From contig CADAGX010000016.1 of the NCBI GenBank assembly GCA_902787575.1, forward strand, positions 1-64,000: a stretch of 64,000 bases of DNA. The letters are read 5' to 3'. The notes under the pieces are model-generated. The model did no database searches and was not told the origin of the DNA. It saw only the letters and a program-made list of their open reading frames with translations. Position 1 is the stretch's first letter. Each line of letters starts with the position of its first letter. The stretch is from an uncultured Bacteroidales bacterium. Its GTDB lineage: Bacteria; Bacteroidota; Bacteroidia; Bacteroidales; Bacteroidaceae. Shown piece after piece: positions 2,916 to 49,762 of the stretch. Made by a program: the position numbers and the translations under genes.

Positions 2916-3647
2916 ATGAATTACGCTATTATTATAGCAGGCGGAGTAGGAAGCCGTCTGGGTGCGCCTGTACCTAAGCAATTTGTGGAGGTGTTGGGCA
3001 AACCTGTAATTGCCTATACAATGGAACATTTCCAGAACCATCCAGAGATTGACGCTATTGAATTGGTTTGTGTAGATGGATATCAAGACCACTTGAAGGC
3101 AATAACAGAGAAATACGGTATAACTAAATTACTCAAGATAGTCAAAGGTGGCTCTGAATATGAACGTTCAATCATGAACGGTGTAGCAGGTCTTGAAGGA
3201 ATAGCAAAACTAGGCGATATTGTGACTATTCACTGGGCCGCATCACCATTCCTTTCCGAAGAAATGATTACAGACAATCTTCGTGTGTGTGGAGAGAAAG
3301 GCAATGCCATCACAGCAAGCTACTCATATCTCCTTTATGGTAGTAATGATGGTGATTGTTCTTTGAAGGCCATCAATCGTGAATCGTTCATGACTCTTTC
3401 TGCGCCTCAATCATTCCGTTACGAAGTAATTACAGACTTATATAAGCAGGTAGAGGAAAAGCATTTGTTTGAAACAATAGATGAACGTCATACTACTGTT
3501 TTCATGGCTGAGTTGGGAATACCGCTCTATTTCTCAAAAGGTAGCCATACAAACATTAAAATAACGACTAAGGAGGATATAGATTTGTTCTTGGGCTATC
3601 AGTTGGCAAAAAAATACAAGAAGGAGCATCCTGAAGAATGGGATTAA
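2916..3647 (+). CDS. IspD/TarI-family cytidylyltransferase with altered active-site motif
   Basis: This 243-residue protein is of the IspD/TarI cytidylyltransferase family. The N-terminal signature IIIAGGVGSRLGAPVPKQF (residues 5-23) is intact, including the catalytic Arg and Lys. The usual second motif, HDxxRPF in the family, reads HWAASPF here, so the conserved Asp and Arg are replaced. Because it sits with a choline-kinase-like and a LicC-like gene, a role in activating a polyol- or amino-alcohol-phosphate for surface decoration is more likely than isoprenoid synthesis. It follows the previous gene by 25 bases. The true substrate cannot be told from sequence. Confidence 0.7.
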   Translation: MNYAIIIAGGVGSRLGAPVPKQFVEVLGKPVIAYTMEHFQNHPEIDAIELVCVDGYQDHLKAITEKYGITKLLKIVKGGSEYERSIMNGVAGLEGIAKLGDIVTIHWAASPFLSEEMITDNLRVCGEKGNAITASYSYLLYGSNDGDCSLKAINRESFMTLSAPQSFRYEVITDLYKQVEEKHLFETIDERHTTVFMAELGIPLYFSKGSHTNIKITTKEDIDLFLGYQLAKKYKKEHPEEWD

Positions 3648-3671
3648 CAATAGAGAGAGGTGCATAGAAGG

Positions 3672-4510: not shown

Positions 4511-5686
4511 ATGGCGAAGAAAGTTTTTGTCAGCGGTTGTTACGACTTGCTCCACTCGGGGCACGTGGAGTTTTTCCGTCAGGCGGCACAGTATGGCGAC
4601 TTGTATGTGGGGATTGGTTCGGACCAGACAATTCTGGGTTACAAGCATCACCGGACGGTTTACTCCGAGCAGGAGCGCCTCTTCATGGTAAAGAGCATCC
4701 GCTACGTGAAGGACGCATACATCAATGCGGGCAGTGGCGTGATGGATTTTGTGCCCACACTGGATATCGTGAAGCCCGATATCCTGGTTGTGAACAGCGA
4801 TGGCGGGAATGACGAGAAGCGCCGCCTGTGTGCTGAACGCGGAATCGAGTATGTGGTGCTCGAGCGGGTGCCGCAGCAGGGGTTGCAGGCGCGTTCTTCC
4901 ACCGCCCTGAAGAAGACGGAGAGTCAGATACCCACGCGTCTCGACCTTGCCGGCACGTGGATCGACCAGCCGTATGTCTCTTGCCACGCGCCGGGCTGGG
5001 CCATTACCATCTCTTTGGAGCCGACTTTCGACGTGCGGGAGCGTTGCGGCCTCTCGACATCGACTCGCAACATGATTAAGAAAATTTGGCCATACCAGTT
5101 GCCCAATATGAATCCCGAGATGCTGGCGAAGCTGGTGTTCTGTTTCGAGAACGACCCGGAGCGCAGCGACGGAATCATCAGCGGGGCGCAGGATTCCATT
5201 GGCATTTGTGTGCCTGGGCTCAGCAGGCATTATTACGACAATCGCTTCTGGCCCGAGAAGATAGAGACTTGTCTGGACGAGGCCGTTCTGCAGTGGCTCG
5301 AGGCGCACTTGGTGATGATTCCGATGCAGCCGCGCCAGCCGGGTTGCTCTGTGGTGGAGGGGAAAGACATCACTGCGCCCAAGGTGAAGGCTTTGGCACG
5401 TGCAGCGGACGACTGCTGGCAGGCCATACTGCGGATGCAACTCGAGGAGTTCGCAGCCGCCTACCGTGCCAGCTTCGATGCGCAGGTGGCCATGTTCCCG
5501 GCCATGGTGCAGGGCAGCGTGCCGCGGTACATCCGAGAGTATTCTGCCCTGCCCGAAGTCCTCGCCTGGAAGATGCCGGGCGCAGGCGGGGGCGGCTATT
5601 TGGCTTGCGTGGTGAGCGACGCAGCCCGCTTCTCATCAGTTCACAGCGAAGCAATTCGCCTAACAATTCGTCGTTCCGGCTTCTAA
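4511..5686 (+). CDS. Bifunctional-type protein: cytidylyltransferase-like domain fused to degenerate GHMP-kinase-like domain
   Basis: Residues about 1-135 are a nucleotidyltransferase of the TagD/RfaE-C type with the HSGH signature (residues 15-18) and an ERLFMVKSI block. Residues about 140-391 resemble the galactokinase/fucokinase (GHMP) family: an early RLDLAGTW block, a central SGAQDSIGI block in place of the usual Gly/Ser-rich ATP loop, and a C-terminal MPGAGGGGYLACV loop. This two-domain protein occurs in Bacteroidota next to fucose or rhamnose genes, and here it precedes FucP and a RhaM-like mutarotase. A sugar-nucleotide role is likely but the substrate is unknown. The GHMP ATP loop is degenerate, so kinase activity is doubtful. 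Confidence 0.75.
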   Translation: MAKKVFVSGCYDLLHSGHVEFFRQAAQYGDLYVGIGSDQTILGYKHHRTVYSEQERLFMVKSIRYVKDAYINAGSGVMDFVPTLDIVKPDILVVNSDGGNDEKRRLCAERGIEYVVLERVPQQGLQARSSTALKKTESQIPTRLDLAGTWIDQPYVSCHAPGWAITISLEPTFDVRERCGLSTSTRNMIKKIWPYQLPNMNPEMLAKLVFCFENDPERSDGIISGAQDSIGICVPGLSRHYYDNRFWPEKIETCLDEAVLQWLEAHLVMIPMQPRQPGCSVVEGKDITAPKVKALARAADDCWQAILRMQLEEFAAAYRASFDAQVAMFPAMVQGSVPRYIREYSALPEVLAWKMPGAGGGGYLACVVSDAARFSSVHSEAIRLTIRRSGF

Positions 5687-13890: not shown

Positions 13891-14111
13891 CTTGGCACTC
13901 CGAGCCAATTCCACAAAAGCGAAAAACGTGTTTCCCGTGTTTTTCTTTGTCCTGCCGAGACTAAAAACAATACGCGACACGCCTCCAATACTGCCTTTTT
14001 CGGAATTTGACAAGCTCCACCTTCGGACAGAGCACTGCCCTCACCAAGCTCTCAGGCACGAAACGACATCGAGTCGTTTCTCTCCGGCCTGGTCTTGCCC
14101 TACGCGAGCCA
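13891..14111. repeat. Gene-free spacer with a degenerate 73-bp-type repeat
   Basis: No gene is seen. From about 14002 the sequence (GAATTTGACAAGCTCCACC, then GCCCTCACCAA and, near the end, GCCCTACG) is a diverged copy of the palindromic element found intact at 18804-18877. Confidence 0.5.
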
Positions 14112-14464
14112 TTGCTTTTCTCTCACTTTTTCGTAACTTTAACCTGTGGTTGAAGTTACTTCGTCTCGGCAGAAAAAGAAAACTTCGGTTTTCTTTGTTC
14201 TGCTCTCGATTTATTCGTAACTTTGGCTGTGCCCAAGTTGCTCCCGTTCGGAAAAGCCAAAATAAATTTTGCTTTTCTCTCACTTATTCGTAACTTTGAG
14301 TCTCGACTCGAAGTTACTTGCGTTCGGAAGAAAAAAGAAAGGGTTTTCTTTTGTTCTTCTCTCACTTATTCGTAACTTTAACCTGTGGTTGAAGTTACTT
14401 CGTCTCGGCAGAAAAAGAAAACTTCGGTTTTCTTTGTTCTGCTCTCGACTTATTCGTAACTTTG
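14112..14464 (+). promoter_or_regulatory. Array A: five tandem repeat units, each with a full promoter
   Basis: Five boxes TAACTTTG or TAACTTTA start at 14134, 14218, 14291, 14373 and 14457 (73-84 bases apart), each preceded by TTG or TTTG at 19-20 bases. All but the first and fourth end in G or have a full TTTG, and all share TTATTCG or a close variant just before the box. The last unit (TTTG 14433-14436, TAACTTTG 14457-14464) is 24 bases before the ATG of the aldo/keto reductase. Between boxes are two hairpins per period (GTAACTT arms; CAGAA-AGAAAA arms). The same family is seen at 36101-36297, 37157-37430 and 49339-49614. Confidence 0.75.
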
Positions 14465-14488: not shown

Positions 14489-15613
14489 ATGACTTACAAC
14501 GATTTTCAGGACCTGAAACTCTCGGCACTGGGCTTTGGCTCTATGCGCCTGCCCGTGATAGACGGAGATGACAACCGGCCCGACGAAGCGCGGGTGCAGG
14601 AGATGGTGGACTATGCCATGAGCCACGGAGTGAACTACTACGACACGGCTTGGGGCTATCACGGCGGAGCTTCGGAACCGGTGATGGGGCGCGCACTGGC
14701 GCATCATCCGCGCGAGTCGTTCTTCCTTGCCACCAAGTTTCCCGGCTACGACCTGAGCAATATGCCTCGGGTGAAGGAGATTTTCGAGCAGCAGCTCGAG
14801 CGCCTTCAGGTGGAATACTTCGATTTCTACCTTATTCACAACGTTTGCGAACTGAACATTGACGCCTACCTCGACCCTCAGTACCACATCTACGACTATC
14901 TGATGGAGCAGCGGCGCCTCGGACGCATCCGCCATCTGGGCTTCTCGGCCCACGGCTCGTACGAGGTGATGGAGCGCTTCCTTGCGGCCTATGGTGCGGG
15001 CATGGAGTTCTGCCAGTTGCAGGTGAACTGGCTCGACTGGGACTTCCAGAAGGCCAGCAGCAAGGTGGAGCTCATCCGTCAGCACGGCCTGCCGCTCTGG
15101 GTGATGGAGCCGTTGCGCGGCGGCAAGCTCTGTTCGCTCGCACCGGAGTACGCAGAGCGTCTGCGCGCACTCCGTCCCGACGAGACGCCCACGGGCTGGG
15201 CTTTCCGCTTCCTGCAGGCGGTGGATGCCACAGTGGTGCTCTCGGGCATGTCCTCGCTGGAGCAGCTGAAGTGCAACGTGCAGATTTTCTCGGACCGACA
15301 GCCGCTGGACGAGAAGGAACGTGGCGTGCTGATGGAAATCGCGCACCAGATGGTGACGCCCGGCACGGTGCCCTGCACCGCTTGCCGCTACTGTACGAGC
15401 CACTGCCCCATGGAGCTGGACATTCCTGCCCTGCTGGCGCTCTACAACGAGCACAAGTTCTCGGGTGGCGGCTTCCTGGCTCCGATGGCTCTGATGTCGT
15501 ATCCCGAGGACAAGAAGCCGCAGGCCTGTCTGGGTTGCGGCAGTTGTGCAGCCGTCTGCCCGCAGCAGATAGACATCCCGGGCACGCTGGCCGATTTCTG
15601 CGAGATACTCTAA
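14489..15613 (+). CDS. Aldo/keto reductase with C-terminal 2x[4Fe-4S] ferredoxin domain
   Basis: This 374-residue protein has an aldo/keto reductase barrel (GFGSMRLP at about 17-24; Tyr in YDTAWGYHGG, Lys in ATKF, His in LIHNV as catalytic residues) followed from about residue 300 by a ferredoxin-like tail with two cluster motifs, CTACRYCTSHCP and CLGCGSCAAVCP. Such fusions are typical of anaerobes and are presumed to couple carbonyl reduction to ferredoxin; the substrate is unknown. I chose ATG 14489 because it lies just downstream of the last promoter unit of array A; the upstream TTG would start inside the -7 box. Confidence 0.88.
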   Translation: MTYNDFQDLKLSALGFGSMRLPVIDGDDNRPDEARVQEMVDYAMSHGVNYYDTAWGYHGGASEPVMGRALAHHPRESFFLATKFPGYDLSNMPRVKEIFEQQLERLQVEYFDFYLIHNVCELNIDAYLDPQYHIYDYLMEQRRLGRIRHLGFSAHGSYEVMERFLAAYGAGMEFCQLQVNWLDWDFQKASSKVELIRQHGLPLWVMEPLRGGKLCSLAPEYAERLRALRPDETPTGWAFRFLQAVDATVVLSGMSSLEQLKCNVQIFSDRQPLDEKERGVLMEIAHQMVTPGTVPCTACRYCTSHCPMELDIPALLALYNEHKFSGGGFLAPMALMSYPEDKKPQACLGCGSCAAVCPQQIDIPGTLADFCEIL

Positions 15614-15788
15614 CCCCTGAAGGGGACTTTGGCCTTTAGCCTTTAGCTTTTGGCCAATAGCCAACGGCCAATAGCCAACGGCCAACAGCCAACAGCCAAC
15701 AGCCAACAGCCGATAAGAAGGGGGACTTTGGCCTTTAGCCTTTAGCTTTTGGCCAAAAGCCAATAACCAAAAGCCAATAGCCGATAAT
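15614..15788. repeat. GCCAA-type repeat cluster between reductase and MscS genes
   Basis: Two direct copies of a block that starts GGGGACTTTGGCCTTTAGCC (about 15620 and 15721) are each followed by runs of seven-base words such as GCCAATA, GCCAACG and GCCAACA. The ACTTTGG edge is the same as that next to the S23 gene at 5689. Confidence 0.7.
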
Positions 15789-33374: not shown

Positions 33375-36071
33375 TCAAATTGGGTGAGTTTCGGGCGAAT
33401 CGGACAGGAAATGTTCGGCTTTTTCGTGCTCTTCGAGTGCCACTCTGAGGCGTGCTATCTGCATGGCCGTCTCGTCTCTTTTAGCTTCGAGGCTGTCTCG
33501 CTGTCCCACGATGGAGATTTGCAGTTCGTCTTCGTCCACCTTTCCTCTTCCTCCCTCGGCCTGCAGTGCTATGAGGCGGCTGTTCAGGTCGTCTGTCTTG
33601 GCTTGGCTTTGTGCTACCTGCAGTTTCAGTTGAGTCAGCCGTTGGCGAAGCTCGTTCCAGTCTCTCTCTTGCGAGAATACGCTCTCCAGTTCGGCATATT
33701 GCACGGGCGGATTGTGGAGGTTGAAGGTGCGAATCCAGTGGTCCAGCACGTTGCGTTCCTGCAGGTATTGTGCATTGAGTTCCTCTTCCGTCTGGGCGTA
33801 ATTGTCGTCTCGGCCCTTTATGCGGTCGGTCTCGTGCTGAATCTGCAGCGCAGCCTCGCATTCCTTTTCTTCCAGCGCGCGTGCCTCGAGCGTCTGTTTC
33901 AGTTGCAGCGAGTAGTAGGTGCGGGCATCCTGCTCACCCATGATGCGCTGGCATTCGTTGCGAGCCTCGTCTGCGCGGTCCAGACACGTCTCCATGCGGC
34001 TGTGGCGGCGATCCTGCTCGGTTTGCAGAGTGTGCAGTCTCGTCTCTTCGCATTCGAGCAGGTGTTGCTCCACGGCCAATTTCTCTTCCGCCTGTCGAAT
34101 CCTCTGATTCGTATCGCCCCAGTCGGCCATCAGCTTCTGTATGCGTCCCTTCAGTCCCTCGCGGCTGCTTCGCCACTCGCTGAGCCATTCGGGTATGGTG
34201 ATGAACTTGTCGAGCCTTTCGTACACGCCGCTGTAGTGCTGCCTCTCTTGGTCTATCTGCTGTTGTATGCGCTCCACCTGTCCTGCCATCACTTGGCAGC
34301 CGGTGTTCACCTCGTTCAGGCGTCCCGTCAGGTCGCCTTTCTTCTGTTCCTGCTGCTGCAGTCGTGCCGAGAGGTTGTTGATGGAGTCCATGTGATAGGT
34401 GAAGGTGTCCAGCTCTTTCTGCGCTTGCTCCGAGGCGCTTGTGGCGTTCTCTATCAGCTGCCGTAGCATGGCCTGCCGGGCTTCCAGGTTGGTGCTCTCC
34501 GAGCATTCGGCAAACGACTGGTCGAGTTGTGCATAGAGTTGCCACTCGCCGACGTCTTCCGCCTGTCGGGCCTTGATGTGTGCCAGTGTGTCTTCCTCCA
34601 CCTGTTGCCGTCCTTTGCAGTCCGCCAGTTCCAGCCGCAGTGCTTCGAGGTTTGCCTGCTTGCTCTTCGTCTCGGCCGAGAGCAGTTCGAAGTCTGTCTT
34701 GAACTCGCCTATGAGCTTGCTCTGTTCCAGCATGCTGTCGCTGTGGAACGGGTGGTGCACGGCTCCGCACACCGAGCAGCTGGTACCCTCCTTCAGGTCG
34801 GCCCGCAGTTGTATCACGTTCTGGCTCTTGCTCAGCATGTAGGTGTACTCCTTCTCATGACAGAGGCGGCTCAGTTGTGCCACTTCTGCCTCCAAGGCCC
34901 GAATGCTCTCTTCCGTATGGTTGATGTGCAGCCGCAGTGTGTTCAGCGTCTGTGTCTTCTCTTCTATGAGGGTGTAGCCAGTGGAGATGCGATTCCAGAG
35001 CGACTGCGCCGAGAGTAGCATTTGCCGTCTTCCCTTCAGTTCCATGGCTCGTGTCTGCATCTGTACGCTGCTCTGTCCCTGAATGTTTGTACGGAAACGG
35101 GCAATGTCGTCGTTCAGCGTGTTGATTTCCGAACAGATGTCCTGATACTGCGCGAAGATGCGCCTCAGCAGTTCGTTCTCCTCGTTCTGCCTCGTCTCAG
35201 CCTCGCGCTGTCTCTGCTGCAGCGTCTCCAGCTGCGTCTCTATCTCTTGCAGGCGGTCCAGCAGCAACAACACCGTCTCGCCGTGCTCCAGCATCCGCTC
35301 GTGCATCTCTATGCCCTGCCGCCGCGTGCGCTCCTGCTCCAGCACTGCTGCAAGGTTGTCCCTCGCAGCCGAGTGTTCGCGTATGGAATCTGTGGCGGCC
35401 TCCATCTGCAGGGCTGCGCGGTGCTCCTCTTGCTTCAGGTAGGCAATCTCCTGACTGAGCGTCTCGGCGCCAGCTGTCAGCTGCATGCCACGGAACGTCT
35501 CCTCGAGTGTCTGGCGGAGCCGCGTCTCGGCCTGCTCTCGTTCCTCTGCAGCCTGCTGCGCCACCTTTTGGCGCGTGGCAAAGAGTTCCTGTGCCTCGTG
35601 CCCGTCGCTTTCCGCCTGCAGGCGGTCTTGCCTGTTCCGCTGAATGGCCTGCTCCAGTCCCTTCATGCGCAAGAACGTGGCCATGATGCCTTCGAAGCGC
35701 TCGAAGCGCTCCAGTTCGCGTTGCTCGTCCGCCATCATAGCTAGCTGCTTTGTCAACTCGCCCAGCTGCCTTTTTTCCATGTCCAGCGTGAGCCTTACTT
35801 CGCTGTATCTTCGCAACCACTCCTGACTCGTACGCAAACGCTCCAGTGCCTCCTCCGTGCCTCGCAATTTAGCTTCGGCCAGACCCAGTGCCTCGCGAGT
35901 GCGCTGCAGCTGCTGCGCAGTCATCAGACCCGCAGGCTGACGTCTCGCCGCAGGCACAGAAGGACGTGCCGCCACTGGCGACATCACAGGAGTCACAGGG
36001 GCTTCCGATACGGCCTGTCCGCCTGTCTCCTCGTCTCTTCTCTTCTGACTTTTGATTCCGAATAAACTCAT
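33375..36071 (-). CDS. Zinc-hook coiled-coil protein lacking ATPase heads
   Basis: This 898-residue protein is almost entirely coiled coil, rich in Glu, Gln, Arg and Leu, with a zinc hook near the middle: CSVCGAVHHP at about residues 432-441, like the CxxC hook of Rad50/SbcC. Arms of about 370-430 residues lie on each side. Rad50 and SbcC carry ATPase halves with Walker A at the N-terminus and signature/Walker B at the C-terminus; neither is seen here. The N-terminus (about 1-55) is a Pro/Ala/Arg-rich tail, and the C-terminus ends in a short acidic helix. It is expressed from promoter array B. A structural or DNA-linking role is possible. Confidence 0.75.
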   Translation of the reverse strand: MSLFGIKSQKRRDEETGGQAVSEAPVTPVMSPVAARPSVPAARRQPAGLMTAQQLQRTREALGLAEAKLRGTEEALERLRTSQEWLRRYSEVRLTLDMEKRQLGELTKQLAMMADEQRELERFERFEGIMATFLRMKGLEQAIQRNRQDRLQAESDGHEAQELFATRQKVAQQAAEEREQAETRLRQTLEETFRGMQLTAGAETLSQEIAYLKQEEHRAALQMEAATDSIREHSAARDNLAAVLEQERTRRQGIEMHERMLEHGETVLLLLDRLQEIETQLETLQQRQREAETRQNEENELLRRIFAQYQDICSEINTLNDDIARFRTNIQGQSSVQMQTRAMELKGRRQMLLSAQSLWNRISTGYTLIEEKTQTLNTLRLHINHTEESIRALEAEVAQLSRLCHEKEYTYMLSKSQNVIQLRADLKEGTSCSVCGAVHHPFHSDSMLEQSKLIGEFKTDFELLSAETKSKQANLEALRLELADCKGRQQVEEDTLAHIKARQAEDVGEWQLYAQLDQSFAECSESTNLEARQAMLRQLIENATSASEQAQKELDTFTYHMDSINNLSARLQQQEQKKGDLTGRLNEVNTGCQVMAGQVERIQQQIDQERQHYSGVYERLDKFITIPEWLSEWRSSREGLKGRIQKLMADWGDTNQRIRQAEEKLAVEQHLLECEETRLHTLQTEQDRRHSRMETCLDRADEARNECQRIMGEQDARTYYSLQLKQTLEARALEEKECEAALQIQHETDRIKGRDDNYAQTEEELNAQYLQERNVLDHWIRTFNLHNPPVQYAELESVFSQERDWNELRQRLTQLKLQVAQSQAKTDDLNSRLIALQAEGGRGKVDEDELQISIVGQRDSLEAKRDETAMQIARLRVALEEHEKAEHFLSDSPETHPI

Positions 36072-36100: not shown

Positions 36101-36297
36101 CAAAGTTACGAAAAAGTGAGCGAAAAGCAAAATTTATTTTGTCTTTTCCGAGCGCAAGTAACTAAAACCGCAGGTTAAAGTTACGAATAAGTCGAGAGAT
36201 GTGCAAAACGAAAGACGAAGTTTTTCGGTTGCGCACATCCGAGCGGAAGTAATTTGGGCCGCAGGCCAAAGTTACGAAAAGTTGAGCGAAGAACAAA
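36101..36297 (-). promoter_or_regulatory. Array B: three promoter-carrying repeat units
   Basis: On the minus strand, boxes TAACTTTG (36101-36108), TAACTTTA (36176-36183) and TAACTTTG (36267-36274), each with TTTG 19-20 bases upstream (36128-36131, 36204-36207, 36294-36297). They face the zinc-hook gene; the nearest ends 29 bases before its ATG. Confidence 0.75.
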
Positions 36298-36341
36298 GAA
36301 AAACGCATTTTCTTTTTTTGCCGAGATAGTTAACACCCGAT

Positions 36342-36415
36342 GTAGGGCAATCGCGCGTTATGCGTTCAAGCGATTGGTGAGGGCGCAGCCCGAAGGTGGG
36401 GCTTGTCAAATTCCG
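36342..36415 (-). repeat. 73-bp palindromic repeat, inverted copy
   Basis: Exact or near-exact reverse complement of 18804-18877, about 17.5 kb away. Confidence 0.8.
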
Positions 36416-36466
36416 AAATGGTACGAAACATTTCCAACTATGGACTATGCACTATGAACCGTCTCT

Positions 36467-36550: not shown

Positions 36551-37156
36551 CGAGCGTATCGACATGCGATACCTGGCTCAAAAGAGGGCTCGATTTTGCA
36601 CTTTGCAATTTGCACTTTGCAATAAGGGTACACCTCCCCTATATAATTAGTTAATCAATGATTGATTAATGATTATATATATATATATATATAGTCCACA
36701 CGCACACACAAATGCAAAATGCAAAATGCAAAATGCAAAATGTTGTTCGGCTGCTGTTGATTTTCAGACGATTGTGCGTTCATTTGTCTCGACGTGCCAC
36801 ATTTTGCTGCAAAAATCCGGCGCTCAACGGTCTAAAACAAGGCGGGTGAGGACGCATTTTAAGGCTGCTCAAGGCCTCGTTTGCAGCCTTTTGGCGTACA
36901 GTCGTCTGTCAGCCCCTGTTTTTTTTGCCCTCTGAATGGCATCCAAAATAATGCACTAAATGGCACGTTTTGGGTGGGTAGGCACATACTTTTGTGGACT
37001 TTTAGGGGTCTAAACCTCACCTTAGCGCCCCAATTTATAGCATCTAAAACACCACGTGCACTTCGTTGCGCGAAGAACAAAAATCCTTTCTTTGCACTTT
37101 GCAGTTTGCACTTTGCAATAAGGGGTAAGGTGTGCGTTCGGAAAAGGCAAAATAAT
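36551..37156. other. Gene-free spacer with short tandem repeats
   Basis: No gene is seen. It holds an (AT)n run of about 22 bases (36673-36695), GCAAAAT words (36711-36740), TTTGCACTTTGCAAT-type words at about 36597-36622 and 37098-37122, and a 250-base stretch (about 36790-37060) without obvious structure that includes GGCATCCAAAATAATGCAC. The stretch might hold an ancient gene remnant, but no convincing frame was found. Confidence 0.6.
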
Positions 37157-37430
37157 TTTGCTTTTCGCTCACTTATTCGTAACTTTGGCCTACGGCCCAA
37201 GTTACTTCCGCTCGGCAGAAAAAGAAAAATTGGTTTTTCTTTGTTCTGCTCTCAACTTATTCGTAACTTTAACCTTTGGTTTTAGTTACTCTCGTTCGGA
37301 AAAGCCAAAATAAATTTTGCTTTTCGCTCACTTATTCGTAACTTTGGCCTACGGCCCAAGTTACTTCGTCTCGGCAGAAAAAGAAAAATCCGTTTTTCTT
37401 TGTTCTGCTCTCAACTTATTCGTAACTTTG
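37157..37430 (+). promoter_or_regulatory. Array C: four promoter-carrying repeat units upstream of hisS
   Basis: TTTG/TA-box pairs at 37157/37180, 37240/37264, 37316/37339 and 37399/37423, with spacers of 19, 20, 19 and 20 bases and a period of 75-84. The two spacer types alternate. Boxes are TAACTTTG except the second (TAACTTTA). The last box ends 27 bases before the hisS ATG. Confidence 0.8.
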
Positions 37431-37457: not shown

Positions 37458-38816
37458 ATGGCTCAGAAACCAAGTATTCCCAAGGGGACGCGCGACTTTG
37501 GCCCACAGGAAATGGCGCGCAGAAACTATATTTTCGATACCATTCGCGAGGTCTATTCGCTCTTCGGCTTCCAACAGATAGAAACGCCGGCCATGGAGAA
37601 CCTCTCCACGCTGATGGGCAAGTATGGCGAGGAGGGCGACAAGCTGCTCTTCAAGATTCTCAACAGCGGCGACTTCCTGCGCGAGGCTGACCCCGACTGC
37701 TTGGCTGCAGGGGCCAGTGGACGACTGGCTGCACAGCTCTGCGAGAAGGGCTTGCGCTACGACCTGACGGTGCCCTTTGCCCGTTATGTGGTGCAGCACC
37801 GCGAGGAACTGACGCTGCCCTTCCGTCGCTACCAGATTCAGCCCGTCTGGCGAGCCGACCGTCCGCAGAAGGGTCGTTACCGTGAGTTCTACCAGTGCGA
37901 TGCGGACGTGGTGGGCACCGACTCGCTGCTCAGCGAAGTGGAGCTGATGCAGATAGTGGACGAAGTGTTCCATCGGTTCGGCATCCGCGTCTGTATCAAA
38001 ATCAACAATCGCAAGGTGCTCTCTGGCATTGCCGAGCTGATTGGCGAGGCGGACAAGATTGTGGACATCACGGTTGCCATCGACAAATTGGACAAGATTG
38101 GCCCCGAGGCGGTGGCCGACGAGTTGCGCGAGGCAGGTCTTAGCGACGAGGCCGTCGTAAAGCTGCAGCCCATACTCGGCTTGCATGGCTCGAACGAGGA
38201 GAAACTCGCTGCAATGCGCGCTCTGCTGACGGACAGCGAGACGGGACTGAAGGGATTGGACGAGGTGGAGTACGTGATGAGTCACTTGCTGCAGATGCGC
38301 TCTGAGGTGGAATTCGACCTCACTCTGGCACGCGGACTGAACTACTATACGGGCTGCATCTTCGAGGTGAAGGCGCTGGATGTGCAGATAGGCAGCATCA
38401 CAGGCGGTGGCCGCTACGACAATCTGACGGGCATTTTCGGCATGCCGGGACTGAGCGGAGTGGGCATCAGCTTCGGTGCCGACCGCATCTATGATGTGCT
38501 GAACCAGTTGCAGCTCTATCCCCAGACGGTGACCAACGCCACTCAGCTGCTCTTCATCAACTTTGGCGAGACGGAGACGGCCTACTGCCTGCCCATTCTG
38601 GCCAGGCTGCGCAAGGCCGGCATCCGCTGCGAAATCTATCCCGATGCCGCCAAGATGAAGAAGCAGATGCAGTATGCCAATCAGAAGCAAATCCCGTTTG
38701 TGGCATTGGCAGGAGAAACGGAGATGGCCGAGGGCAAGGTGACGCTCAAGGATATGCAGACGGGCCAGCAGCAACTGCTCACGGCTGAAGAAATGGTGGA
38801 ACGCCTCTCTCGCTAA
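37458..38816 (+). CDS. hisS: Histidyl-tRNA synthetase
   Basis: This 452-residue class II synthetase charges tRNA-His. The N-terminal KGTRDFGP block (about 8-15), motif 2 region [15 protein letters not shown] (about 134-148), the histidine-specific [12 protein letters not shown] (about 294-305), motif 3 [11 protein letters not shown] (about 334-344) and a C-terminal anticodon-binding domain are all present. I chose ATG 37458, which gives the normal N-terminus and is the first start after the last unit of promoter array C. Confidence 0.95.
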
Positions 38817-42473: not shown

Positions 42474-42676
42474 AAAATGGTGAGAGGTGAGAGGTGAGAG
42501 GTGAGAGGTGAGAGGTGAGAGGTGAAAGATTCGCTAACCACTAACCGCTAACCACTAACCGCTAACTGGTGAGAGGTGAGAGGTGAGAGGTGAGAGGTGA
42601 AAGATTCGCTAACCACTAACCGCTAACCACTAACCGCTAACCGCTAACCGCTAACCACTAACCACTAACCACTAAC
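42474..42676. repeat. Tandem-repeat block upstream of pdxS
   Basis: Runs of GAGAGGT, then AAAGATTCG, then CTAACCACTAACCG words; the whole composite unit is duplicated (about 42477-42566 and 42567-42676) with different copy numbers. It fills the spacer between the AraC fusion and pdxS. The copy number may vary by slippage. Confidence 0.85.
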
Positions 42677-42690
42677 CTTTACTTTATATT

Positions 42691-48017: not shown

Positions 48018-48140
48018 TTATATTAGGTTAGAGGTTAGAGGTTAGAGGTTAGAGGTTATTGGCTATTGGCTATTGGCTATTGGCTATTGGTTAGTGGTTG
48101 CCAAATGCCAACGGCCAAAGCCAAAGTAAATACCTATTTA
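48018..48140. repeat. Repeat spacer with TTAGAGG and TTGGCTA words
   Basis: Six TTAGAGG-type words (48025-48058), then TTGGCTA words (48059-48090) and GCCAACGGCCAAAGCC, ending GCCAAAGT, the inverse of the ACTTTGG edge of other GCCAA clusters. It is followed by AAATACCTATTTACTATTTAC. Confidence 0.75.
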
Positions 48141-49328
48141 CTATTTACTCCCCGCCCTCGGGAGGGGATTGGGGGAGGGGCTGCTTGGCAGTATATTTTT
48201 GCGAAACACCCGTTTGTCCGTCAGGCGCCAGCGGCACCAGTCGGCAGCCTCCCAAAGCGGCGCCACGAATTGCAGCACTGGCAGGCTCAGACAGTAGGTG
48301 CTAAGGCCCAGCCTGCGCGTGGTGAGGCGCAGCATCGTTTGTCTCAGGGCTTGCAGGGCGAGCCACATGGCGCAGATGGCAGCCACTACATAGTAGTTCC
48401 CCCACAGCAGCACCAGCATGCCCACTACCACTGCGGGCAGCAGCCACCCCGCCGCCACTTGCAGCAGGTACCTGAGGTGTATGGCCCAGCCGTGCCTCAT
48501 GTGGCGCCACGTCTCCATGCAGAAGACACGTTCCTCGTGCCACCGTCTGGCCGTGGGTGCCTCCTCCACGAGCTGAGCCTGCAGCCTGAGGTTGAGCGCG
48601 CAGCCGCCTGCGGGCACGTTGTGATTCACCAGTAGCGTCTCGGCTCCCACCTGCAGCGTCTGGCTCGACGCAAATCCCCTGTGACTGGCGAAGTGGCTGC
48701 GGCGATAGCAGAGCACACAGCCCTCTGCGCTGTACGGTCTGCCCAGCTCAGACTGCGGTAGCCACCGCATTTGCCGCCAGAGGCGCAGGAACTGCGCTTT
48801 GCGCGCTGGCCGCTCCGTCGGCTCGTAGCGCACCGGGCCGACAGCCGCCACCTTGTCTTCGCCGAGCGACTGAGCCACCGTGAGCAGCCAATCCTTGCCC
48901 GTGGGCATGCAGTCCGGGCGGACGAACACCACCCAGTCGTGGGCCGCAGCCTTCATGCCCAGTGTCATGGCCATGCGTCGGAGGCTGATATCGCGTGCCG
49001 AGGCTGGCAGGCTCGTCTGGCGGAGTTGAGGATAAGCGTATGCGAAGTGCTCCAGCAGAGAGCGCGTCTCGTCTGTGCTGCACATATCCACTGCTATGAC
49101 CTCGAATTCTGCAGGGTAATCCTGTTCGAGCAGCAGCGGCAGCAACCGACGGAGCCGCTCCGCCTCGTTTTGGCAGGCCACCACCACCGAGACGCCCGGC
49201 ACGTCCGCTCTCACAGGCTGCAGTGCCTGCCGAGCCGCCATACGCCCCAAGCGTCCGAACTCCCATGCCTGCCAAAGGCAGAGAACCCAGAGTACCACGA
49301 ATGCCAGATAGAGCGGAGCTAAAACCAT
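48141..49328 (-). CDS. Membrane-bound glycosyltransferase family 2
   Basis: This 395-residue enzyme has an N-terminal membrane helix, a GT2 catalytic domain (VSVVVACQNEAERLR at about 47-61; VIAVDMCSTDETRSLLE with the UDP-binding Asp; WVVFVRPDCMPTGKDWL) and two to three C-terminal helices. It likely builds a surface polysaccharide. The last 14 residues (SSPSPNPLPRAGSK) are encoded by a CCCTCGGGAGGGG-type palindromic repeat, so the original C-terminus has been replaced. Promoter array D lies 10 bases upstream. Confidence 0.83.
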   Translation of the reverse strand: MVLAPLYLAFVVLWVLCLWQAWEFGRLGRMAARQALQPVRADVPGVSVVVACQNEAERLRRLLPLLLEQDYPAEFEVIAVDMCSTDETRSLLEHFAYAYPQLRQTSLPASARDISLRRMAMTLGMKAAAHDWVVFVRPDCMPTGKDWLLTVAQSLGEDKVAAVGPVRYEPTERPARKAQFLRLWRQMRWLPQSELGRPYSAEGCVLCYRRSHFASHRGFASSQTLQVGAETLLVNHNVPAGGCALNLRLQAQLVEEAPTARRWHEERVFCMETWRHMRHGWAIHLRYLLQVAAGWLLPAVVVGMLVLLWGNYYVVAAICAMWLALQALRQTMLRLTTRRLGLSTYCLSLPVLQFVAPLWEAADWCRWRLTDKRVFRKNILPSSPSPNPLPRAGSK

Positions 49329-49338
49329 AATCCGGCTG

Positions 49339-49614
49339 CAAAGTTACGAATAAGCGAGCGATGTGCAAAACGAAAGACGAAGTTTTTCGGTTTTGAACAT
49401 CCGAGCGGAAGTAACTTGGGCGCAGCCAAAGTTACGAATAAGTGAGAGAAAAGCCAAATTTGTTCTGTAATTTAGCCGCTGCAAAAATGCAAAAATGCAA
49501 AAATGCAAAAAAGAGAGGGCTGTTGCCCTCTCTTTCCTATTTGCTGCGCTTGCGCAGAATGTCCTGAATATAGACTCGCACGCCAAAGTTACGAATAAGC
49601 GAGCGAAAAGCAAA
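49339..49614 (-). promoter_or_regulatory. Array D: three promoter-carrying repeat units
   Basis: On the minus strand TAACTTTG boxes at 49339-49346, 49427-49434 and 49584-49591, with TTTG at 49366-49369, 49455-49458 and 49611-49614 (spacers 19, 20, 19). All face the glycosyltransferase gene. Between the second and third lies a GCAAAAAT tandem (about 49480-49515) and a short spacer; a degenerate fourth unit is at about 49660. Confidence 0.75.
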
Positions 49615-49762
49615 ATTTATTTTGGCTTTTCCGAGCGCAAGTAACTTCGACCGCAGGCCAAAGGCGCGAATAAGTGAGCGAAAAGCGAGACGGCAAGCAG
49701 TGGCAATTTTCTATGCAGCAGGGCCGAAAATAAAAATAATGTGTGAGAAAATGAATTTTTTG

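Follow-up and report, generated by a model that had tools for sequence, protein, structure and literature searches.

Tandem hairpin units upstream of Bacteroidales genes: a candidate mobile element that would target and regenerate core promoters

Short hairpin units that carry a promoter consensus stand in head-to-tail arrays upstream of genes in an uncultured Bacteroidales bacterium and its relatives. Judging from comparisons of DNA sequence, we consider it likely that they are copies of a non-autonomous mobile hairpin element whose targets are core promoters, which it regenerates. A unit would insert directly 3' to the TTTG that closes an existing primary-sigma -7 box (TAnnTTTG), oriented like the promoter it enters. 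It would end in a complete promoter (a -33 TTTG in the 3' arm of the hairpin H2, 19-20 nt and TAnnTTTG), so that the native box would come to lie farther upstream and the gene would still have a promoter at an unchanged distance. This new box would in turn be a target, giving head-to-tail stacking of copies. Movement may proceed via single-stranded DNA folded so that its left block, acting like an IS200/IS605 guide, pairs with the cleavage site ending in TTTG, and the restored promoter would presumably fire.

The window (the whole 64,000-nt stretch of DNA that was analysed) contains all 15 TA-boxes that an earlier note had placed in four arrays. The pattern TTATTCGTAACTTT at up to two mismatches finds 15 matches, every one inside these arrays, against 0.11 expected from shuffles (0/100 shuffles attain 15). 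Array 1 (14112..14464, + strand) has five units upstream of the aldo/keto reductase gene starting at 14489; its gene-proximal -7 box TAACTTTG lies at 14457..14464 (+) and the -33 TTTG at 14433..14436 (+), within the 3' arm of H2, and the other boxes start at 14134, 14218, 14291 and 14373 (+). Array 2 (36101..36326, - strand, outer end by eye) has three units, including the H2 of the first, and reads towards the gene starting at 36071, with boxes at 36267-36274, 36176-36183 and 36101-36108 (-) and its gene-proximal -33 TTTG at 36128..36131 (-). Four units upstream of hisS form array 3 (37135..37430, +), where boxes lie at 37180, 37264, 37339 and 37423 and the hisS-proximal -33 TTTG at 37399..37402 (+). 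Array 4 (49339..49458, -) carries two units upstream of the glycosyltransferase gene starting at 49328 (boxes 49427-49434 and 49339-49346, gene-proximal -33 TTTG at 49366..49369, all -), and a further unit and a decayed copy occupy 49584..49690 (-), all but the box at 49584-49591 being placed by eye.

The geometry described in the earlier note largely holds. A TTTG or TTG had been claimed 19-20 bases before each box: 14/15 units have TTTG at 19 or 20 bases, and the remaining one, at 14134, has ATTG at 19. For the claimed repeat spacing of 73-91, Tandem Repeats Finder gives periods of 75-84 for 14267-14464 and 37135-37430 (it does not report arrays 2 and 4), and within-array spacings in the wider locus set are mostly 66-91. 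The array-end boxes stop 24, 29, 27 and 10 nt before the start codons at 14489, 36071 (-), 37458 and 49328 (-), as the claimed range of 10-29 bases would have it. Every unit had also been said to point at the adjacent gene. The units of any given array do share one direction, but a short ORF and terminator-like sequence stand between the other array-4 units and the third (box 49584-49591; by eye). The third unit faces the short ORF and then a terminator-like inverted repeat (49510-49583), not a long gene (also by eye).

Three of the four gene names proposed earlier are confirmed by Pfam: the aldo/keto reductase with 4Fe-4S domains downstream of array 1 (14489..15613, +; PF00248, E 7e-34), the histidyl-tRNA synthetase HisS downstream of array 3 (37458..38816, +; PF13393, E 1.6e-36) and the family-2 glycosyltransferase downstream of array 4 (48141..49328, -; PF00535, E 3.5e-13). 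The name 'zinc-hook' for the 898-aa protein downstream of array 2 (33375..36071, -) was not borne out: the Pfam scan gave no match and NCBIfam only weak Rad50/SMC matches far below cut-off.

TAnnTTTG with a -33 TTTG is the stated consensus of Bacteroidota promoters (PMC7366714, in part). Over the wider set of loci, TTTG stands at 19/20 bases before 223/242 gene-proximal boxes, and at 18 or 21 before none. From the match to the consensus, the exact spacing and the conservation, we infer that the units act as promoters. They look unidirectional, since the reverse reading of a unit has TAnnTTTG in 0/173 cases and TTTG at 19/20 in 7/173. The earlier idea of several stacked promoters per gene holds only in part. 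TTTG stands at 19/20 before 58/67 interior boxes. Interior boxes look less constrained: all 242 gene-proximal boxes end in G against 52/67 interior boxes, and 15/67 interior boxes end in A against 0/242 (p = 3e-11). The gene-proximal box therefore probably does most of the work.

One unit is ~75-90 nt long and non-coding, and consists of a stem-loop (H1), a left block resembling GAAGTTACTYNCGCTCG, a bulged, AT-rich hairpin (H2), CTCRCTTATTCG and then TAnnTTTG. Read gene-ward, a -7-like box comes first, H1 continues from it (e.g. TTTG-ACCTGCGGTC), and the left block (e.g. CGAAGTTACTYNCGCTCG), H2, CTCRCTTATTCG and TAnnTTTG follow, the -33 TTTG sitting in the 3' arm of H2. In the unit with its left box at 37339..37430 (+), the left box and H1 take up 37339-37363, the left block 37357-37373, H2 37374-37408 and the right motif and box 37410-37430. 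Folded as a single strand, this unit gives z = -5.6 and a second window unit z = -6.4 (both + strand). The two ends of a unit form a short inverted repeat, GAAGTTAC / GTAACTTTG, and the left block can pair with the box but lies ~10 nt away from the foot of H2.

Both hairpins persist while their sequences change. H1 has at least three uninterrupted pairs in 78% of 76 distinct loops, against 11% of shuffled ones. H2 stems of at least 9 bp occur in 154/160 distinct sequences; 141 of those 154 are interrupted and 13 uninterrupted, and the first interruption falls 5-7 pairs from the foot in 98 of the 154. The mean energy of H2 is -8.5, against -2.5 for simple shuffles. A simple ungapped test of H2 complementarity gives a weak signal (0.68 against 0.55 swapped); the complementarity becomes visible once folding permits bulges. 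The maintenance of both hairpins despite changing sequence is what one would expect of a regulator acting at the RNA level, with H1 and H2 serving in 5' leaders as attenuators or processing sites. We hold this to be highly improbable. The Rfam scan of the window returned 0 matches above gathering score; if the gene-proximal promoter is the main one, transcription would start downstream of H1 and H2 and the transcript would hold neither; and, going by the anatomy, the 5' arm of the first H1 would be the native -7 box itself, untranscribed from that promoter.

Some units show further structure. In L042 (a unit near the 3493-3652 array) and L096 (the array near 5661-5674), extra hairpin segments are nested in H2 (by eye); they lie directly after ATTTG and themselves end in ATTTG, as if other TTTG sites were also used. 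Wobble pairs were considered as a guide to the active strand, but ordinary transition bias might account for the whole G-to-A excess in the left block, and we claim no strand.

Under the preferred reading, in which a mobile hairpin brings a promoter with it, the box on the left of a unit would be native and the box on the right carried in. The comparison of left blocks started from 314 sites, 309 after removal of duplicates, with L119 left out; that of left boxes omits L119, L349, L379 and left boxes <30 nt from a sequence end, and 102 remain. The left block is complementary to the unit's own right box at the two variable bases in 120/174 units (permutation mean 69, maximum 83) and mismatched in 54/174. 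Where the two boxes are unequal (31 units), the left block fits the right box 21 times and the left box once, and a TAAC-type left block occurs in 0/47 units whose right box is TACC or TATC. Left boxes, on the other hand, are diverse in the 23 units with non-repeat left flanks (CC 8, AC 5, TC 5, others 5); TTTG stands at 19/20 before 9 of these 23, with at most two at any other spacing tested. Left and right boxes differ in 17/23 of these native-flank units, or in 14/20 without L021, L049 and L216, which look misassigned (the pattern misassigns some left boxes, e.g. L021, L040, L049, L071, L216 and L294). Since the left block fits the right box and the left boxes are diverse, the left block and right box would travel together and the left box would belong to the target. 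A recognised left block is absent from 135/309 right-end sites, some of which are promoter-only copies. Such copies, with a right end but without the left block or the 5' arm of H2, were seen in L041, L004, L010, L015, L065 and others; they may be remnants of deletion, insertions that were cut short, or donors.

These flanks also bear on whether the units could be a conventional MITE, moved by a DDE transposase with target duplications, as proposed for the BrickBuilt element discussed below. Their intergenic place and multiple copies would suit a MITE, as would the short inverted repeat at their ends with its frequently complementary variable bases. Yet the flanking boxes differ too often to be a target duplication, the right box goes with the left block of its own unit, and the target is a specific box entered in a fixed direction. 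We give the MITE explanation almost no credence.

The most direct view of insertion comes from sites that are empty in one genome and filled in another. We located hisS in 126/139 congeners and read 90 upstream regions. Eight congeners, picked by eye from these 90, have one common native promoter (G015, G045, G099, G071, G055, G013, G043 and G120), and six of their sites are empty and two filled. The filled sites contain 84 nt (G045) and 87 nt (G071), each directly after the native box, and the distance from box to ATG is kept (24/24 for G015/G045, 30/30 for G099/G071). The cleanest pair is G015/G045, whose flanks agree on both sides; G071 has a diverged right flank, and decay has turned its displaced box into CAACTTTA. 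A rule-based count gives a right-end site in 11/90 regions and a left block in 3, under a rule that misses the G045 unit altogether and the G071 unit in part. By parsimony, the empty hisS state would be the older; the direction rests on parsimony because precise recombination between two boxes, possible in single cases, would also give an 'empty' site.

A viral pair tells a similar story. L421 has 77 bp after TACCTTTG where L423 is empty, and the following 8 nt to the ATG are unchanged (8/8). The flanks are ~90% and 95% identical, and the left side is less clean: L421 and L423 share neither the box (TAAC against TACC) nor the 8 nt ahead of it. L422 is filled too, with left box TACCTCTG. At the two hisS sites and this viral site alike, insertion is 3' of a fixed short target, after TTTG, in one orientation and without duplication. 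Viral loci that are otherwise alike, L416/L422 on one side and L417/L421 on the other, have unlike right boxes and unlike bases just after them (TACCTTTGTCCCCTGTT against TATCTTTGCAGCCAAT), which looks like an exchange of the restored promoter end.

Elsewhere, empty and filled states were harder to pair. For pgk and kbl (128 and 107 genomes matched), 30 orthologues were read each and recognised units found in the window's own genome only, apart from a near-match at pgk in L351. The upstream regions of most of the other orthologue pairs compared were too diverged to align. The locus represented by L053, L041 and L012 exists in three states (free of units, with a promoter-only copy, and with a unit as well as a promoter), with no clean junction. 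This last locus fits another account, in which ordinary promoters are duplicated in tandem and kept by selection, strongly expressed genes retaining several copies without any mobility. So do the variation in unit number between arrays and the near-identical neighbouring units of L003 and L049. We nevertheless regard duplication and selection as quite improbable: the same hairpin families occur at unrelated genes of one genome, complete units sit at native promoters in the few empty/filled sites found, and units combine a native left box with a left block that matches the right box. The claim that the repeats spread as portable promoters gains from the empty/filled sites, which indicate that units arrive as insertions, and from the distribution of the motif across the genome and genus described below.

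The orientation of units relative to genes is not random in arrays lying between co-directional genes. Genes were taken from a simple purpose-made caller. A first set, the window plus 118 loci, comprised 153 clusters and 238 boxes. Between co-directional genes, 53 clusters point at the downstream gene and one away; the exception, L046, is a mixed-strand pair with an exact copy on the other strand. The remainder are 57 divergent, 3 convergent, 18 inside called genes (17 of them sense) and 21 at edges, and nine clusters are mixed-strand. For the window's own genome (a 2.65-Mb draft), 40 regions drawn from 100 listed of 151 motif places gave 39 clusters, counting only those with a match of at most one mismatch: 14 sense, 0 antisense, 21 divergent, 0 convergent, 2 in genes (sense) and 2 at edges. 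When the arrays between co-directional genes are pooled, 67/68 point at the downstream gene (p = 5e-19). Insertion 3' of TTTG in a fixed direction and without duplication, by a unit whose hairpin lies between pairable blocks and whose end is identical with its target, would give both this orientation bias and the head-to-tail arrays without selection. The unrelated genes downstream of units in the own genome look like rsmI, pgk, valS, leuA, dapF, kbl and others (from protein starts, by eye), and several downstream genes look housekeeping (by eye).

The motif is found throughout the genome and the genus. A 14-mer at up to two mismatches matches the own genome 151 times, against 15 for the reversed pattern. 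A 20-mer with TACC/TATC boxes occurs in 79/139 congeners, with up to 48 copies per genome and 671 exact copies in total (reversed control 0). At the level of the family, an exact 15-mer with TAACTTTG is present in 161/399 sampled genomes and 18/30 genera, the reversed pattern appearing once each in four genomes. A scan of named genomes for the exact motif with TAACTTTG gave at least 118 stretches (L001-L118). Among the listed stretches, 80 titles name Prevotella, Prevotellaceae, Bacteroidaceae, Muribaculaceae, Porphyromonadaceae, Bacteroidales or Candidatus Equimonas; Prevotella ruminicola KHT3, with units on its contig L053, is one strain-titled record among these 80 titles. Viral contigs of 4 to 145 kb yielded 12 stretches with the right end, 10 of them with a recognised left block; their phage status rests on the source collection, PHROGs giving weak matches for one of two proteins tested. 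Units of one genome have more similar H2 hairpins than units of different genomes (0.667 against 0.614; 67 units, five genomes; 0/2000 label permutations).

What might move the units? Guides of IS200/IS605 elements pair with their cleavage sites (PMC6006769, in part), and the units resemble these elements and REP/RAYT systems in their bulged hairpin, in a block able to pair with the cleavage site and in inserting 3' of a short sequence, always in one orientation and with no duplication (same source, in part). They could accordingly be REPs, or palindromes derived from IS200/IS605, moved by a Y1 (RAYT-type) transposase, and would then contain a promoter merely as a by-product of their target and end sequence. 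The hairpin with its end-pairing block, the absence of target duplication, the fixed orientation and the head-to-tail arrays all fit such guide logic as the available text of PMC6006769 presents it, and RAYT-like genes are present in the genus. We regard this explanation as possible but unlikely. The left block lies ~10 nt from the foot of H2 instead of directly at it, and the units follow none of the Y1 genes found. They also differ from IS200/IS605 ends and REPs in having one hairpin for both ends, a -7 promoter box as target and a promoter as 3' end.

The search for an enzyme covered two families. Y1 transposases (PF01797) occur in 36/139 congeners and are not enriched with units. None of the 30 Y1 loci read contained a unit; they yielded only three near-matches to the right end, with two mismatches each. 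A single Y1 gene (L149) passed the threshold used for the window genome, and it was rejected as the mobiliser: it lies among different palindromes, GTAGGGAATTTG...CAAATTCC. A divergent RAYT-like family (alignment A1) occurs in 95/139 congeners in up to 13 copies. It, too, was rejected: A1 was seeded mainly from high-copy genomes, which favours a positive link, yet the correlation with unit number is negative (rho -0.25). A right-end-like site, without left block, was found in 1 of 30 RAYT-like loci, and neither family reached the thresholds used in the high-copy genomes G059, G071 and G074. The RAYT-like loci L432, L433, L435-L439, L447 and L451 are mostly open frames of 350-425 aa with PDHxH and DNPRRL in most and an extra C-terminal domain; three of the proteins against Pfam and two against NCBIfam all scored below cut-offs. 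An IS91-type search gave no match, but its controls were silent too, making it uninformative. IS200/IS605 is the closest working analogy, but the units do not belong there as far as the enzyme goes, since neither the Y1 nor the RAYT-like genes found track them.

The preferred reading, a mobile hairpin that targets and restores core promoters, invites comparison with other known systems. Integron attC sites are sequence-variable but structure-conserved bulged hairpins in head-to-tail arrays, with GTTRRRY cores and an integron integrase acting with attI. The units, too, are bulged, structure-conserved hairpins in head-to-tail arrays, but their ends show no GTTRRRY core on reading and they carry no cassette genes. 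The invertible promoters of Bacteroidales are Bacteroidota promoters associated with inverted repeats. The units differ in keeping one direction in nearly all arrays, and we saw no switch flanked by an inverted pair.

Two comparisons concern mobile promoters proper. Putative mobile promoters (Matus-Garcia, Nijveen and van Passel, 2012-2014) are promoter sequences repeated before non-homologous genes and thought to spread (PMC9208149 and PMC4596501, each in part). The units are likewise similar promoter-bearing sequences before unrelated genes in one genome. To our knowledge, neither a preference for core-promoter targets nor promoter regeneration has been described for putative mobile promoters. 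The units, which would target and regenerate the core promoter, would differ from that group in this respect. BrickBuilt, a MITE of Porphyromonas gingivalis, forms intergenic tandem units, has lacZ promoter activity in E. coli and was suggested as a possible mobile promoter; it consists of a 23-nt minisatellite between leader and tail, with IS5-like ends and bidirectional promoters, and the available part of its description reports it in P. gingivalis and P. gulae only (PMC4596501). Both elements are intergenic tandem units of Bacteroidota, but against the 23-nt core and IS5-like ends of BrickBuilt (PMC4596501, in part), our units have a period of 75-84 and end in GAAGTTAC/GTAACTTTG.

The earlier note knew of no description of such a family. 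The literature we searched (including the motif letters as text, and covering few subscription papers) offered no description of the unit family, nor of an element that targets and restores a -7 box; the concept of mobile promoters is in print, however, and BrickBuilt represents a related idea in Porphyromonas. The novelty thus appears to lie in core-promoter targeting and regeneration, mobile promoters and promoter-carrying MITEs being known already. We lean slightly towards seeing the units as a new class of mobile DNA, whose target is the -7 box, which would insert 3' of TTTG via a folded strand, bring its own promoter end, heal the site it enters and make the next target: selfish hairpins that would rewrite core promoters across Bacteroidales, with phages as carriers. 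If true, many promoters of rumen and gut Bacteroidales would be promoter-carrying insertions, not ancestral sequence, and units could pile up before genes without switching them off. The element would exemplify how mobile DNA can avoid harm by targeting and restoring a core promoter, and would offer a route, possibly phage-carried, to quick change in promoter strength and copy number. It would also be a natural test bed for hairpin movement without an obvious transposase.

Other repeats were observed alongside the units. The Y1/RAYT-type gene of L149 (own genome, around C1:149956-150246) is embedded in many GTAGGGAATTTGCTTGTCAAATTCC palindromes and looks like part of an ordinary REP/RAYT pair; CGGAATTTGACAAG stretches resembling these palindromes lie near 14001-14027 and 36390-36416 of the window (by eye). 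The window also has 7-base tandem-repeat arrays of several different sequences, at 15653-15711, 42479-42677, 48025-48099 and other places.
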